A stretch of 13,957 nucleotides of DNA from positions 1 to 13,957 of the forward strand of contig JAFYZZ010000042.1 in the NCBI GenBank assembly GCA_017548445.1. The letters run 5' to 3'. A program made the translations under genes and the position numbers. Shown piece after piece: positions 3,217-11,333 of this stretch (positions are counted from its first letter, which is position 1; every line of letters begins with the position of its first letter). The notes beneath the pieces are model-generated. The model was not told where the DNA came from. It searched no databases and worked only from the letters and a program-made list of their open reading frames with translations. Origin of the DNA: Bacteroidales bacterium (GTDB lineage: Bacteria; Bacteroidota; Bacteroidia; Bacteroidales; UBA932).

Positions 3217-4719
3217 TTAGTTGACACAGATGGCCGGGACGACGCCGGCAGCGCCTCTCACATTCATGCCGAAGACCGTGGGGTAATCGTTCACGCCGGC
3301 GGCTTCCTGCTCCAGACGCTCGGAGAAGAGCGTGTGGAAGTACGGCGGGAGCACGGGCGTACGCAACCACCAGGTGGTCGTGGTCTCATCGTCGAAATGC
3401 GCGGCCCCGCGTCCGCGGGAGAAATCCGTCAGCGGGCGGGCCAGGCCCTTGTAGGTGGTCGCCGTTTCCGAAGCCCGCCACTGCTCGCCGGCCCAGAACT
3501 TGTCCATCACGTTTTCTTCCGTCACCTTGGGCGGGACCTTGATGAAGCCATAGTCCGAACGCGTCACCTCCTTGGGGCTCAGCACGAACACCTTGTCCTT
3601 CGTGTTGTTGCTGGTGAGCTTGGGGAAATACACGCGCTTGTGCTCCTCGCCGCGCTCGTAGTACATGGTCCCATCGTACAGGCTGCGGTCCACCGCCGTG
3701 AGGTCCTGGACCAGGTCGATGCCGGAGTTCTGCCGGCTGCTGTTGTCCACGGTGGTGACGGCGATCTTGCCCTGCAGGGCCGGCGTGAAGGCGGTCTGCA
3801 GGAAGCCGCGGCCGACGAATTCCTCGTTGATCCGCGTATAGGGCTTGAGTCCCTTGCGGTAGATCTCATCGTCGCCCTGGACATAGGGAATGCCGTTCAG
3901 GAAGGCGCGCAGGCGGCTGTGCTCATAGTTGTTGTGATGGATATAGGTGCCGTTCTCCAGCTGGCGGATCGTCACGTCCAGCGTGAAGGCGTAGCGGTTG
4001 CCGTCCACCGCCTCGAAATGCGAATGGTCGCCGAACGTCTCGCAGAACTGCTCGTTGGTCAGGGCGGCCTCGGCGAGCAGGAGTTTCTTGCCGCTGCCGT
4101 TGTAGTTGTTCGTCAGGATGCGCCACTTGATGGGCTCGACCTTGAAGTAGCGGTAGGACTTCTTGTAGCTGGTCTGGACCCGCGTCCCGTCGCTGTAGCG
4201 GAAGCCGTTCGGGCCCTCGTAGCCACTGGTCTTGTTCTCCAGGAGCTTGATGTACCAGGCGCCGTCGCTGCCCTTGTAGTAGGTGTGGGCGCCGGCAACG
4301 GCAATCTGGGACTCATCGACCGTCACGTTCGCGGCCTTGATGGTCTGCGGCCAGTCGCCGAACAGGACATAGGTGCCGCTCTTGCCCACCGATCCGTCGG
4401 TCCCGGCGGGGAGCACCGTGTACGGCGTCCCGACGAATTCGTGGACGGTCGCGTTTTTCGGGACGGGTGCCGGCGCCGGCCTGGCGGGCGCCTGGGCGAC
4501 CGTCGTGGACGAAGCGGATTTCTTCGCCTCCGCGCGGGCGGCGGCCTGTTCGCGGGCCTCCGCGGGAACGGGAACGATTTCGACACCGTCCGACAGCTTC
4601 TCGTTCAGGGCATTGATCGAGTTCGACAGCGAGGTGAGCATACTGGAACAGGCGGCACAGACCAGCCCGAGGGAAAGGGCCGCCAACAACCGGGCGACCG
4701 TACACAAAGCGCGTTTCAT
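3217..4719 (-). CDS. DUF6273-type surface lipoprotein
   Basis: A 500-residue protein with an N-terminal lipoprotein-like signal: a hydrophobic stretch followed by a Cys-Ala-Ala-Cys sequence, with Cys24 the probable lipidated residue (the box is imperfect because residue 21 is Cys). An Ala/Pro-rich linker at about 57-90 follows. The remainder resembles DUF6273 proteins, which I know mostly from Treponema and Firmicutes: FGDWPQTIKA at about 120-129, HTYYKGSDGAWY at about 145-156, YFKVEPIKWRIL at about 191-202, then LLLAEAALT, NNYEHSRLRAFLNG at about 263-276, GFLQTAF, WWLRTP at about 450-455 and the C-terminal GVVPAICVN. This fold is related to formylglycine/C-lectin-like modules, so ligand or surface binding is plausible but unproven. 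It lies 11 bases after the araC-type gene and is probably cotranscribed with it. Confidence 0.85.
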   Translation of the reverse strand: MKRALCTVARLLAALSLGLVCAACSSMLTSLSNSINALNEKLSDGVEIVPVPAEAREQAAARAEAKKSASSTTVAQAPARPAPAPVPKNATVHEFVGTPYTVLPAGTDGSVGKSGTYVLFGDWPQTIKAANVTVDESQIAVAGAHTYYKGSDGAWYIKLLENKTSGYEGPNGFRYSDGTRVQTSYKKSYRYFKVEPIKWRILTNNYNGSGKKLLLAEAALTNEQFCETFGDHSHFEAVDGNRYAFTLDVTIRQLENGTYIHHNNYEHSRLRAFLNGIPYVQGDDEIYRKGLKPYTRINEEFVGRGFLQTAFTPALQGKIAVTTVDNSSRQNSGIDLVQDLTAVDRSLYDGTMYYERGEEHKRVYFPKLTSNNTKDKVFVLSPKEVTRSDYGFIKVPPKVTEENVMDKFWAGEQWRASETATTYKGLARPLTDFSRGRGAAHFDDETTTTWWLRTPVLPPYFHTLFSERLEQEAAGVNDYPTVFGMNVRGAAGVVPAICVN

Positions 4720-5857: not shown

Positions 5858-6475
5858 ATGAAACGGATCGCTTTGGCCGCCCTCTTCTTCTGCTGCTCGC
5901 TGGCACTCGCGGCGCAGGATGGCATTCAGGTAAACTATCAGGGCGAAAAGCCCACCATCAGCGACTTTGTCCAGGCCCTCCTCGACACCCCTGACGAGGC
6001 GGACGACGAAGAAGGCTATTACGACGAATCGACCAACGCCTTCCGGCAGGCCTGGATCCGCTACCGCCAGGGCGAGCCGCTGGAGGAGAACGAGACCCTG
6101 ACCGTCGACCAGCGGAACGGGTTCGTCTGCTTCGAGTCCCGCTACGAAGAGAATCTGCTGCGGATCGAGATGTGCTTCTGGAACGAAGCCGACCGGGCGC
6201 ACAAGATCATCGCCTACAACGTAATGTGCTATACGGACGGGAAATACAGCCCCGGCCAGTTCGACGGCCTCGCCTTCCTCCGCTACGACAACGCCTCCCG
6301 GGAGATGCTGTGGTACGACGATTTCGGTTTCACCGTGGAATACGGCACGGAAGACGGCGCCTATGTATCGTACGACCTGCCCCGCAGCGGCAAGGACATC
6401 ACGGCCACCTACTGGTACGCGGACCGCAAGGAGCAGAAGACCCTGAAATGGGACGGACGCCGCTTCAATCCCTGA
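5858..6475 (+). CDS. Small exported protein of unknown function
   Basis: A 205-residue protein with a clear signal peptide (MKR, hydrophobic core to about residue 17, cleavage probably after ALA near residue 18-19). The mature part is acidic, with an Asp/Glu-rich stretch at about residues 44-54 (TPDEADDEEGYY), and rich in Trp and Tyr in the second half, where alternating hydrophobic residues suggest a beta-sheet domain. No catalytic motif, lipobox or membrane anchor is visible, and I do not recognise the family. It has its own promoter and faces the AraC operon, so control by that regulator is plausible. It ends 85 bases before the next exported-protein gene, with no evident terminator. Confidence 0.8.
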   Translation: MKRIALAALFFCCSLALAAQDGIQVNYQGEKPTISDFVQALLDTPDEADDEEGYYDESTNAFRQAWIRYRQGEPLEENETLTVDQRNGFVCFESRYEENLLRIEMCFWNEADRAHKIIAYNVMCYTDGKYSPGQFDGLAFLRYDNASREMLWYDDFGFTVEYGTEDGAYVSYDLPRSGKDITATYWYADRKEQKTLKWDGRRFNP

Positions 6476-6560: not shown

Positions 6561-7151
6561 ATGAAAAAGATCTTGTTGATTGCTGCGGGTCTGCTGATGG
6601 GCGCCGCGGCGCTTTGTGCCCAGGAAGCCATGTACGGCATCAAGTCCGGCCATCTGAAGTTCGAGACCCAGACCAGCGGGGGCATGCAGTACAACGAACT
6701 CTGGTTCGACGACTACGGACGCCTCCGGAAACAGCACGACCAGACGGCGATGGAAGGCTTCGGAACCTACCACACCGAGATCCTGTATCGCGACGGCAAG
6801 GCATACACCAACGCCTGGTTCGACAACGAGAAGAAGGACGAGGCCAAGATGACCGACCTCGGCGAAATGCCCAACTTCCTGAAGATGGACGAGGAGTATC
6901 TGAAGAACAACAAGATTCAGATCCTCGGCACCGAAGAGGTTCTCGGCCGGACCTGCACGATCTACACCTACAAATACAAGTCGATGCTCCGCACGATCAC
7001 CCGCAAGGACTGGGTCTGGAAGGGCATCGTCCTGAAGATGGAGACCAAGGGCATCCTCGGCGCCAATAACAATATGGTAGTCACCGAGTTCCAGGAGAAC
7101 ATCAAGATTCCCGCCTCCACCTTCGCCCTCCCGGCGAAAATCATCGAGTAA
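6561..7151 (+). CDS. Exported protein, possibly LolA/DUF4412-like
   Basis: A 196-residue protein with a textbook signal peptide (MKK, hydrophobic core, probable cleavage after LCA near residue 20 before QE). The mature domain begins with alternating hydrophobic and polar residues (IKSGHLKFETQTSGGMQYNELWFDDYG, about residues 27-53). Near the C-terminus it has KGIVLKMETKGILGANNNMVVTEFQENIKIPASTF (about 153-187). This order of beta strands and the IPASTFALP ending recall LolA-like and DUF4412 periplasmic proteins, which bind lipids or lipoproteins. That assignment rests on pattern memory and is only tentative. It has its own promoter, and the SulP gene that follows has another, so it is probably transcribed alone or with the preceding gene by read-through. 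Confidence 0.8.
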   Translation: MKKILLIAAGLLMGAAALCAQEAMYGIKSGHLKFETQTSGGMQYNELWFDDYGRLRKQHDQTAMEGFGTYHTEILYRDGKAYTNAWFDNEKKDEAKMTDLGEMPNFLKMDEEYLKNNKIQILGTEEVLGRTCTIYTYKYKSMLRTITRKDWVWKGIVLKMETKGILGANNNMVVTEFQENIKIPASTFALPAKIIE

Positions 7152-9161: not shown

Positions 9162-10997
9162 ATGGAAGAAATCAGAAAGGTTTCGTTGAGGAACAAAGCT
9201 ATGGCGGTGATTGACATTCACATTGTCAGCGATTCCGCACGATGTGTCGCCGTAAAGGGACTTGCCTGGGACAAGACGGCCGTGGTAGATCTGCACGATT
9301 TGAAAGAGTTCAAAGAAGGTGACGTCTTACACCTGGAGATCAAGCCCCGGGGCGGGAAAGACGCCAGATCGAAAGAGTTTTTCACCTACCGGATGCGTGG
9401 CGTGAAAACGGCGTACTTCAGATTCGACGGAACTACTTTCCGTAACAAGCTGACCTTTCTCCGCGTTGCCAAAGGCGGTGAAGGGCCTGCGGAAGTCCGC
9501 GGCATCAAGGTGCTTAACCAGACCTCTGCGAATGGCCTCCTGATCGGCATTGAAGGAGGGACCAAGCCCTTCAGCTATCCTTTAACAACCGGCCTGGACA
9601 AGGACCGCGTCACGGACCTTACCGAGATCAAGGGACTTGTCGATGGAGACGAAGCCACGGTAAGCCTTCATACAATCAACGGGATTACAGGATCATCCTA
9701 TACCGTCGTCTTGAACAAGGCCGCCAGGAAGAATGCAGTCCTCTCCGTATACGGCAAGGCCCTTTCTCCTTCGATGAGGCTCCTGTATCTCTCAGATGAT
9801 TTCACCTATTACAAGACGCCTGTCCGGATCTTGAGGGTCAGCCAATATGACAAGGACTACCCGCTCCGGATATGCATCAAGAGCGGTCCGAATGTCTACA
9901 ATGTGACCAGGGAGATTTCGCTTGGGGGCAATTGGTTCGATCTCGCCGACGCCGCGGATATCATCAAAGACGGGGATGAATTCTGGATGGAGGCCACCGA
10001 CGACAAGAAGTTTTACCAACCCGGAGAGCGATTCATCTATCAGAAGGCCTCCACAAAGGAAGCCCGGTACGAGCGCAAAGACTGGAAGATGGTGTTCAAC
10101 GGGATCGCCGAAGCGACGACACACATCAAAAGCCCCGAAGAAGAGAAACTCCTTCAAAAGATTGACGCCTGGGAGAAGAAAGGCAACACGGAAAGCGCCT
10201 GGCCGGGGATCAAGAAAAGCGCCGTCGTCGCAGGCCTGCGGGATCTTGCGGACAGATATTACGTGAAGACAGGCAGGTATACGAATTTCTCAACCGACGG
10301 CAGTTCTACACAAGAGTATTGTACGCGCGTCTACCAGAGCGACGACTACCCGAATTGCGGTTCTGTCGCCATTATGTTCTATGCGGCAAAACTGAATTTC
10401 AGCAAGTTCGTCGATACGGTCATCACATTGTACGAAAAGGGCACGCTATACGGACGGCCCGTGGAGGAAAAACTCCGCAAGGCCAGTACCGATATCGCCA
10501 ACAAGTATCCTTGCCCGGGGAAGGTCGCCGAGGTCTGCTGGATGTTCCAGGGTTCCGTGACGCAGGAAGAAACCAATTATTCGGTCAAACCTGAGCCCTG
10601 CACGGTCAAGATGTTCATGTACCCGGACGAGGAAGCGCGGCTGATCAAATTAGCATTCAAGGCCACCTGTGTCAAGCATCAGAGGATGGCCACCTGGGCT
10701 ACCACGCCAAAAGCCCTGGAGCACCTGGACGAATGGATCAAGTATCTGGACAACTCCGGCTCGGTCTTCTGGCTGATGCACGCCAACGCTTTGGCGCCCT
10801 ATTTGATCGACACCCACAAGTCCTTCACGCACCTGTCGTTCAAAGACCTCCATTGGGTAGTCGTCCTGAAGGCACAAAAAACGGCCAAATACGTCTATCT
10901 CAACATACACACCTGGGGACAACTCCACCGAATCAAAGTGACCCACGCCGAGTTCCGGAAGATGTCATATTCCGCCGTCCTGTTCAAAGCGAAGTAA
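9162..10997 (+). CDS. Multidomain protein: three beta-type modules and a papain/C39-like peptidase domain
   Basis: A 611-residue protein without a signal peptide or membrane helix. Three related modules fill the first half, each about 95-110 residues. They align at VIDIHIVSDS (about 16), VRGIKVLNQT (112) and VRILRVSQYD (221), each followed by a DL-x-GD motif: VVDLHDLKEFKEGD (41-54), VTDLTEIKGLVDGD (150-163) and WFDLADAADIIKDGD (258-272). A linker to about 360 is helical. The C-terminal part has NCGSVAIMF with Cys399, then HWVVVLK with His564 and YVYLNIHTWG with Asn581: the order and spacing of a papain/C39-like cysteine peptidase. Codons are richer in A and T than in neighbouring genes. It could be an effector, a toxin or a housekeeping processing enzyme; no function is assigned. 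An ATG at 9201 is an alternative start. Confidence 0.8.
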   Translation: MEEIRKVSLRNKAMAVIDIHIVSDSARCVAVKGLAWDKTAVVDLHDLKEFKEGDVLHLEIKPRGGKDARSKEFFTYRMRGVKTAYFRFDGTTFRNKLTFLRVAKGGEGPAEVRGIKVLNQTSANGLLIGIEGGTKPFSYPLTTGLDKDRVTDLTEIKGLVDGDEATVSLHTINGITGSSYTVVLNKAARKNAVLSVYGKALSPSMRLLYLSDDFTYYKTPVRILRVSQYDKDYPLRICIKSGPNVYNVTREISLGGNWFDLADAADIIKDGDEFWMEATDDKKFYQPGERFIYQKASTKEARYERKDWKMVFNGIAEATTHIKSPEEEKLLQKIDAWEKKGNTESAWPGIKKSAVVAGLRDLADRYYVKTGRYTNFSTDGSSTQEYCTRVYQSDDYPNCGSVAIMFYAAKLNFSKFVDTVITLYEKGTLYGRPVEEKLRKASTDIANKYPCPGKVAEVCWMFQGSVTQEETNYSVKPEPCTVKMFMYPDEEARLIKLAFKATCVKHQRMATWATTPKALEHLDEWIKYLDNSGSVFWLMHANALAPYLIDTHKSFTHLSFKDLHWVVVLKAQKTAKYVYLNIHTWGQLHRIKVTHAEFRKMSYSAVLFKAK

Positions 10998-11080
10998 GCG
11001 GCTGTCGATTTTGGCGCCTGGATCCCCTGGGTCGCGGCAAGACTTCAAGAGAACCAATAGCAAAATCAATCGAAAGTACG

Positions 11081-11209
11081 ATGGAAGATTATATCAAACG
11101 TGAAATCGACCGATTCGGGGAATTGCTTTTAGCGATCGCCCACAAGATGGGTTTGTTCCTGGACAACAAGGGATACTACTCATTCCGGCTCCACGCCCTG
11201 CTCAGCTGA
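11081..11209 (+). CDS. Small 42-residue protein of unknown function
   Basis: A short frame starting MEDYIKREIDRFGELLLAIAHK with a predicted amphipathic helix of about 22 residues, then LFLDNKGYYSFRLHALLS. The first half looks like the N-terminus of small helical proteins found in Bacteroidales, so this may be a full small protein or a truncated copy of one. It lies 83 bases after the 611-residue gene and directly before a strong terminator, so the two are probably cotranscribed. No toxin, immunity or regulator motif can be seen. It might be a partner or inhibitor of the peptidase-like protein, but only position supports that. Confidence 0.6.
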   Translation: MEDYIKREIDRFGELLLAIAHKMGLFLDNKGYYSFRLHALLS

Positions 11210-11228
11210 GCGCTTCCACCTTTTCCGA

Positions 11229-11282
11229 GGACCGGGCCGAAGGCATTTTTGAAATGCCGGCGGTCCGGCCATTGTTTTTTCC
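11229..11282 (+). terminator. Terminator after the 42-residue gene
   Basis: A two-part stem: GGACCG (11229-11234) with CGGTCC (11261-11266), and GGCATTT (11242-11248) with AAATGCC (11252-11258) around a TTG loop. A run of T (11275-11280) follows. It closes the segment that starts at 9006. Confidence 0.85.
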
Positions 11283-11306: not shown

Positions 11307-11333
11307 TATCTTTGCAATCGTGATGAACGATTG
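11307..11333 (+). promoter_or_regulatory. -7 box with palindromic site at the transcription start
   Basis: TATCTTTG (11307-11314) is a perfect -7 box, although no TTTG lies at the right distance upstream. Immediately after it CAATCGT (11315-11321) and ACGATTG (11327-11333) form a perfect 7-base inverted repeat with a 5-base centre. The weak -33 suits a promoter that needs an activator, and the palindrome suits a regulator site. A 25-codon frame opens at 11337 and ends at 11414, with no recognisable content. Confidence 0.5.

Follow-up and report, generated by a model that had tools for sequence, protein, structure and literature searches.

A candidate family of papain-like Cys-His-His proteins with exchangeable N-terminal modules at a Bacteroidales locus

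The large gene, its setting and its relatives

The window analysed here, 13,957 nucleotides of contig JAFYZZ010000042.1 from a Bacteroidales bacterium, raises the question of what role could be played by a protein in which repeated beta modules precede a domain likened, in a preliminary description, to papain/C39-type peptidases. The gene is, as first described, a single ORF with an ATG start that encodes 611 residues, and its start codon is backed by the N-termini of relatives (e.g. MEEIRW, MSEEIRW, MNQEIRW). It is flanked by a SulP permease gene on one side and a LysR/Asp-Al exchanger pair on the other. The features of the gene and of the region behind it are the following.

9162-10997, + strand: gene of the 611-residue protein, three beta modules and a papain-like C-terminal domain (ORF call, start shared with relatives)
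9171-9470, + strand: beta module 1, residues 4-103 (module HMM, iE 5.4e-18)
9516-9782, + strand: beta module 2, residues 119-207, the most divergent (module HMM, iE 2.8e-4)
9864-10106, + strand: beta module 3, residues 235-315 (module HMM, iE 1.7e-13)
10137-10994, + strand: papain-like domain, residues 326-611 (family alignments, model and PDB matches)
10335-10337, + strand: Gln392, probable oxyanion-hole residue (invariant, 18/18 and 20/20 sequences)
10356-10358, + strand: Cys399, predicted nucleophile and first residue of the core helix (invariant; the helix starts there in the model)
10851-10853, + strand: His564, predicted general base (invariant; second residue of model strand 241-251, model numbering)
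10908-10910, + strand: His583 in H-[S/T]-W-G, predicted third catalytic residue (H in 20/20 sequences)
11081-11209, + strand: 42-codon open frame, possible small partner (tail of the open frame 10733-11209)
11226-11274, + strand: hairpin with T-rich tail, probable terminator (dG -29.9 kcal/mol, z -3.78)

The composition of the gene sets it apart from most of its surroundings. Both its GC3 (0.699) and its CAI (0.491) fall below the ranges of eight reference genes of the window (0.75-0.92 and 0.54-0.82, respectively), which belong to the CAI reference set and were themselves among the genes compared, and its CAI was the lowest among the compared correctly framed genes of more than 100 residues. 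Because both values lie under those of the reference genes, the gene was probably acquired horizontally, with the qualification that two more genes of the window, an AraC gene (CAI 0.541) and a PadR-like gene (0.527), are likewise low; the latter stands outside the reference set, as do g538 (0.743) and abhyd (0.773).

No export signal could be recognized by eye in the 611-residue protein, and a Pfam scan of nine window proteins detected no ABC domain in it or in the other eight, in agreement with the initial account on both points. With no ABC part and a domain of about 285 residues, the protein is not an ordinary C39 exporter peptidase. The same scan recognized neither defence genes among the window proteins nor a biosynthetic gene adjoining the large gene. 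Elsewhere in the window, a 500-residue protein with an N-terminus that looks lipoprotein-like by eye is encoded at 3217-4719 (- strand; DUF6273, E 7.7e-12), and a tandem pair of proteins, both secreted-looking by eye, at 5858-6475 and 6561-7151 (+ strand), the second with a weak, below cut-off resemblance to DUF4412 (E 0.013).

Searches of a set of 5.8 billion proteins, the first of which scored the 7994 candidates with the most shared words, returned 2, 17 and 10 proteins, corresponding to 23 different database proteins and, with the window protein, to a family of 24 members that have in common a C-terminal domain of about 285 residues. The closest, P0002, is 99% identical to the 611-residue protein (20 member sequences on 8 contigs), and two members are named Fibrobacter, one of them P0015 of Fibrobacter sp. 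UWB11. The name under which P0003 is recorded, "molybdopterin converting factor small subunit", finds no support in the domains detected. The first reading of the protein as undescribed is consistent with its having no match above cut-off in Pfam or NCBIfam (the latter run on five members of the family and a single-module protein from Paracoccus) and none to any PADLOC defence model, for which 0/8 scanned proteins matched; a known defence system was set aside on that ground. We consider this a sound new family, the enzyme part of which is apparently without a named family in the libraries searched.

Several candidate labels were rejected. A C1q match on P0003 (PF00386, E 1.3e-6, 29.1 bits against a cut-off of 23.7) covered profile positions 80-113 alone, and a DUF7881_N match on P0013 (E 1.9e-7, 31.5 bits against a cut-off of 27) had no single significant stretch; neither was present in the 611-residue protein. 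K1-lyase_Rider and GbpA_2 were below cut-off on relatives, and SufBD chains (E 0.03 against the full profile), HemS (E 0.006 in 1/11 domain sequences) and NCBIfam NF007648 (E 0.013, 15.6 bits against a cut-off of 254) were equally discarded. No relative was found among 50,697 phage records or, with the PLAT-bearing member P0015 as query, on plasmids; five viral and two genome contig scans also returned none, a weak absence given that these scans relied on short exact patterns. An origin as a phage or plasmid gene was rejected, since these records and scans yielded no phage or viral relative and, on plasmids, the module alone, in Paracoccus.

The C-terminal domain and its conserved residues

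The preliminary description placed Cys399 in NCGS, His564 in HWVVV and Asn581 in the order expected of a papain-like site. Two alignments, one of 18 sequences and a wider one of 20 that omits P0002, P0007, P0013 and P0018, together cover all 24 members, and in both of them Gln392, Cys399, Gly400, Asp562, His564, Trp565, His583 and Trp585 are invariant. The cysteine and the first histidine were thus as described. Asn581, in contrast, occupies a variable column (D12, V2, L2, N1, C1, S1 and R1 in the 20 sequences) and was rejected as third catalytic residue in favour of His583, which is histidine in 20/20 sequences and heads an H-[S/T]-W-G motif (S/T 20/20, W 20/20, G 19/20). Papain has the motif N-S-W-G at this very place. 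By conservation, the triad would be Cys-His-His and not Cys-His-Asn, in which the family differs from papain-type (C1) and calpain (C2) enzymes, whose third residue is Asn.

The model of residues 323-611 was confident (pLDDT 84.9, pTM 0.88), with Cys399 opening a helix and His564 and His583 on successive strands. In structure comparison, among the matches listed, the highest Z-scores were those of calpain-3 (10.4), phytochelatin synthase (10.2), PCAT1 (10.0), SpeB (9.8), ComA (9.5), PeiR (9.5), interpain (9.4), the papain-like toxin 9l5u (9.3) and CdiA-CT (9.2), where differences of less than 1 are to be read as ties. Foldseek, in agreement with this comparison, placed phytochelatin synthase first (E 6.5e-4) and CtaG close to it (E 2.1e-3), with modest TM-scores. 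Judging from their titles, we take nearly all PDB matches of the domain to belong to the papain superfamily. The viral model most similar to the domain was that of a phage protein annotated as papain-like cysteine protease AvrRpt2 (E 5.4e-5); next came models of a peptidase from a phage (8.6e-4), a peptidase of C1A type (2.3e-3) and a lysin, also from a phage (4.8e-3).

The predicted domain has an alpha/beta core, a conserved Cys at the N-terminus of the core helix and a conserved His on the sheet that follows. It shares with the papain-like superfamily (calpain C2, phytochelatin synthase C83, the C39 peptidases of PCAT1 and ComA, and SpeB and interpain of C10) the predicted fold, the Cys at the start of the core helix, the His at the start of a strand, a Gln before the Cys, and S-W-G after the third residue. 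The family departs from that superfamily in having His as third residue, in its length of about 285 residues and in its lack of any match among PDB sequences or significant match in Pfam: a profile of the domain gave zero matches to PDB sequences even at an E limit of 10, and 11 domain sequences gave none to Pfam and PHROG at E 0.001 or better. Peptidase_C39 was not found by Pfam in the 611-residue protein, and DUF3335 (Peptidase_C39 like) appeared at E 0.14 in 1/11 domain sequences. Taken together, the conserved motif residues, the model and the structural matches lend good support to a papain-like fold with a Cys-His-His site, which we predict with high confidence and which supports the early assignment of this half of the protein. 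The family, apparently unnamed, would enlarge an enzyme superfamily that has been studied in depth; the catalytic His predicted in its papain motif is unusual, and its putative docking domains are exchangeable.

Cys-His-His triads have been described in NlpC/P60, DUF1460, DUF1287, Amidase_5, DUF6540, LRAT and Ac81 (PMC10318531). NlpC/P60, DUF1460 and LRAT have such a site (PMC10318531), as predicted also for the present family, which differs from them in its papain-like HSWG motif and by matching none of them in Pfam; NlpC/P60 and LRAT folds were not among the structural matches listed, which does not amount to an exclusion. Papain-like interbacterial toxins were compared as well. The toxin in 9l5u is, going by its title, presumably Cpe1. 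PMC12136450 describes Cpe1-type toxins as Cys-His-Asp/Asn enzymes on T6SS or CDI carriers, none of which was seen with the 611-residue protein. The solved domains of these toxins, including a second one, the Citrobacter rodentium CdiA-CT (8ssk), are of about 140 residues (138 in 9l5u, 143 in 8ssm), in contrast to about 285 here; a literature search on this papain-like CdiA-CT found no paper.

The N-terminal modules

The DL-x-GD signature was seen at all three places where it had been reported (residues 41-54, 150-163 and 258-272). A module HMM, for which 40 copies from relatives and the single Paracoccus module, 41 in all, were used with the 611-residue protein left out, and which was run on the relatives other than P0022-P0027, detected three copies in that protein, so that the triplication initially proposed holds. 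Residues 1-325 scored 115.2 bits, whereas none of 1000 shuffles exceeded 8.0 bits, and the separate module pieces scored 61.2, 16.8 and 46.5 bits, module 2 being weak when taken alone. PepT sandwiches topped the Foldseek ranking for the module model, and the model of module 2 showed likeness to HGSNAT and transthyretin sandwiches.

Relatives have N-termini made of modules, three or four in number, or, as in P0009, P0011, P0012 and P0015, of a single PLAT/LH2 domain where the 611-residue protein has modules. The C-terminal domain of these four is the same (E 7e-86 to 4e-99 against that of P0003); P0009 and P0015, both of Fibrobacter, are labelled at source merely as PLAT/LH2 domain-containing or hypothetical proteins. 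P0013 carries four N-terminal modules and a fifth, complete one (residues 510-610) within its papain-like domain, ahead of the Gln-Cys segment. From these alternative N-termini and the inserted fifth module, it follows that the modules move as units. Among the remaining members, P0025 corresponds approximately to the C-terminal domain alone, P0026 and P0027 have short, different N-termini without significant Pfam match, and P0022-P0024 are fragment-like. A literature search on bacterial PLAT domains joined to papain-like cysteine protease effectors found no paper.

The plasmid relatives detected were single-module proteins of 107 residues on five Paracoccus plasmids. The first-round module HMM matched this module with an iE of 3e-22, which is the independent figure, since the second-round HMM contains the Paracoccus module and matches it by construction. 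On 3/3 plasmids examined, the module gene follows a 661-codon gene, the product of which is recorded as MAC/perforin protein on two of them and as hypothetical protein on one; the one product scanned has a MACPF domain (PF22693, PF01823) and no evident signal peptide by eye. The gene order was the same in L001 (4907-8642, Paracoccus versutus plasmid pTAV3), L002 and L003, namely a 338-residue protein, the 661-residue protein, the single module and a small protein, and because one of the three plasmids carries other genes further downstream, this four-gene set looks like a cassette. The pairing of a MACPF protein with a putative docking subunit is reminiscent, by analogy, of the fungal aegerolysin/MACPF pairs; PMC9937505 concerns a different binary protein.

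The modules were also compared with domain 4 of cholesterol-dependent cytolysins (CDC), to which sequence homology is not detectable. CDC domain 4 adjoins a pore-former, whereas the modules here are fused to a hydrolase-like domain, and the Thr-Leu pair in its loop L1 is absent from the modules of the 611-residue protein: the corresponding column, set by the module alignment and not by a residue-level CDC alignment, reads TF in module 1, AL in module 2 and a gap in module 3. The three repeated modules may serve to dock the enzyme on a membrane or some other surface. Should the module bind lipid, it would constitute a new docking unit linking pore-forming MACPF systems to membrane-directed hydrolases.

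Proposed role, alternatives and the downstream frame

Our preferred reading, held tentatively and at somewhat less than even confidence, is that the accessory and probably acquired gene encodes a surface-docked papain-fold Cys-His-His hydrolase acting as an effector on other cells. The cysteine hydrolase would be made without an evident export signal; its beta-sandwich modules would bind membrane, lipid or another surface and, once bound, keep the catalytic domain beside its substrate, where Cys399 would attack an amide (or thioester) bond with His564 as base, oriented by His583. The enzyme would most likely serve as an effector on other cells and not in housekeeping, and any delivery route to such cells is putative. 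We regard this mechanism for the new family as plausible but unproven. We consider doubtful an extended, joint reading in which one mobile docking unit resembling domain 4 serves two weapons, as a separate subunit next to a MACPF pore-former in Paracoccus and as a tandem array on the papain-like enzyme, and in which the Cys-His-His family of Fibrobacter and metagenomes is a bacterial counterpart of calpain directed against protists or competing bacteria, whose membranes or membrane-bound proteins it would attack.

In an alternative that we deem unlikely, the protein would be a lysin-like or bacteriocin-like cell-wall amidase, with modules binding the cell surface, the Cys-His-His domain cutting peptidoglycan and lysis releasing the enzyme; the absence of relatives from the phage records and viral contig scans speaks against it, as does the lack of an NlpC/P60 Pfam match and, in the members scanned, of any wall-binding Pfam domain above cut-off. 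A calpain-like intracellular processing enzyme, which would dock to the inner membrane of its producer and cleave host proteins once damage or phage attack has occurred, perhaps in a defence role that would itself be conjectural, appears a shade less probable still, considering the PADLOC result, the lack of defence genes in the Pfam scan of the window proteins and a Cys-His-His site where calpains have Cys-His-Asn. The Foldseek ranking and the site of LRAT (PMC10318531) suggest an enzyme similar to phytochelatin synthase, CtaG or LRAT, acting as acyltransferase or transpeptidase or on thioesters, but this reading appears improbable, as C39, calpain and SpeB peptidases reach equally good scores, the HSWG motif is of papain type and no biosynthetic gene was recognized beside the large gene.

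The preliminary description also proposed a 42-residue partner followed by a strong terminator. The frame at 11081-11209 is indeed open; it is, however, not a separate stop-to-stop ORF but the tail of a 158-codon frame (10733-11209) that begins inside the large gene. That the frame encodes an inhibitor of the enzyme, or an immunity protein cognate to it, is improbable: it shares the strand of the large gene, precedes the terminator and resembles that gene in composition (CAI 0.453, against a mean of 0.30 in 13 control ORFs, 11 of which were lower), but no relative was found in Pfam or by tblastn against plasmids (best E 7) and, as the end of a longer frame overlapping the large gene, it may be due to chance. 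The terminator held up, the hairpin being followed by six T, with 0/200 shuffles as stable and a terminator-like site at 11256-11269.

The sequence TAnnTTTG is a motif of Bacteroidota promoters. The window contains, in raw counts, six matches on the + strand and six on the - strand, and those at 11307 and 11418 (+ strand) lie upstream of the next small ORF.
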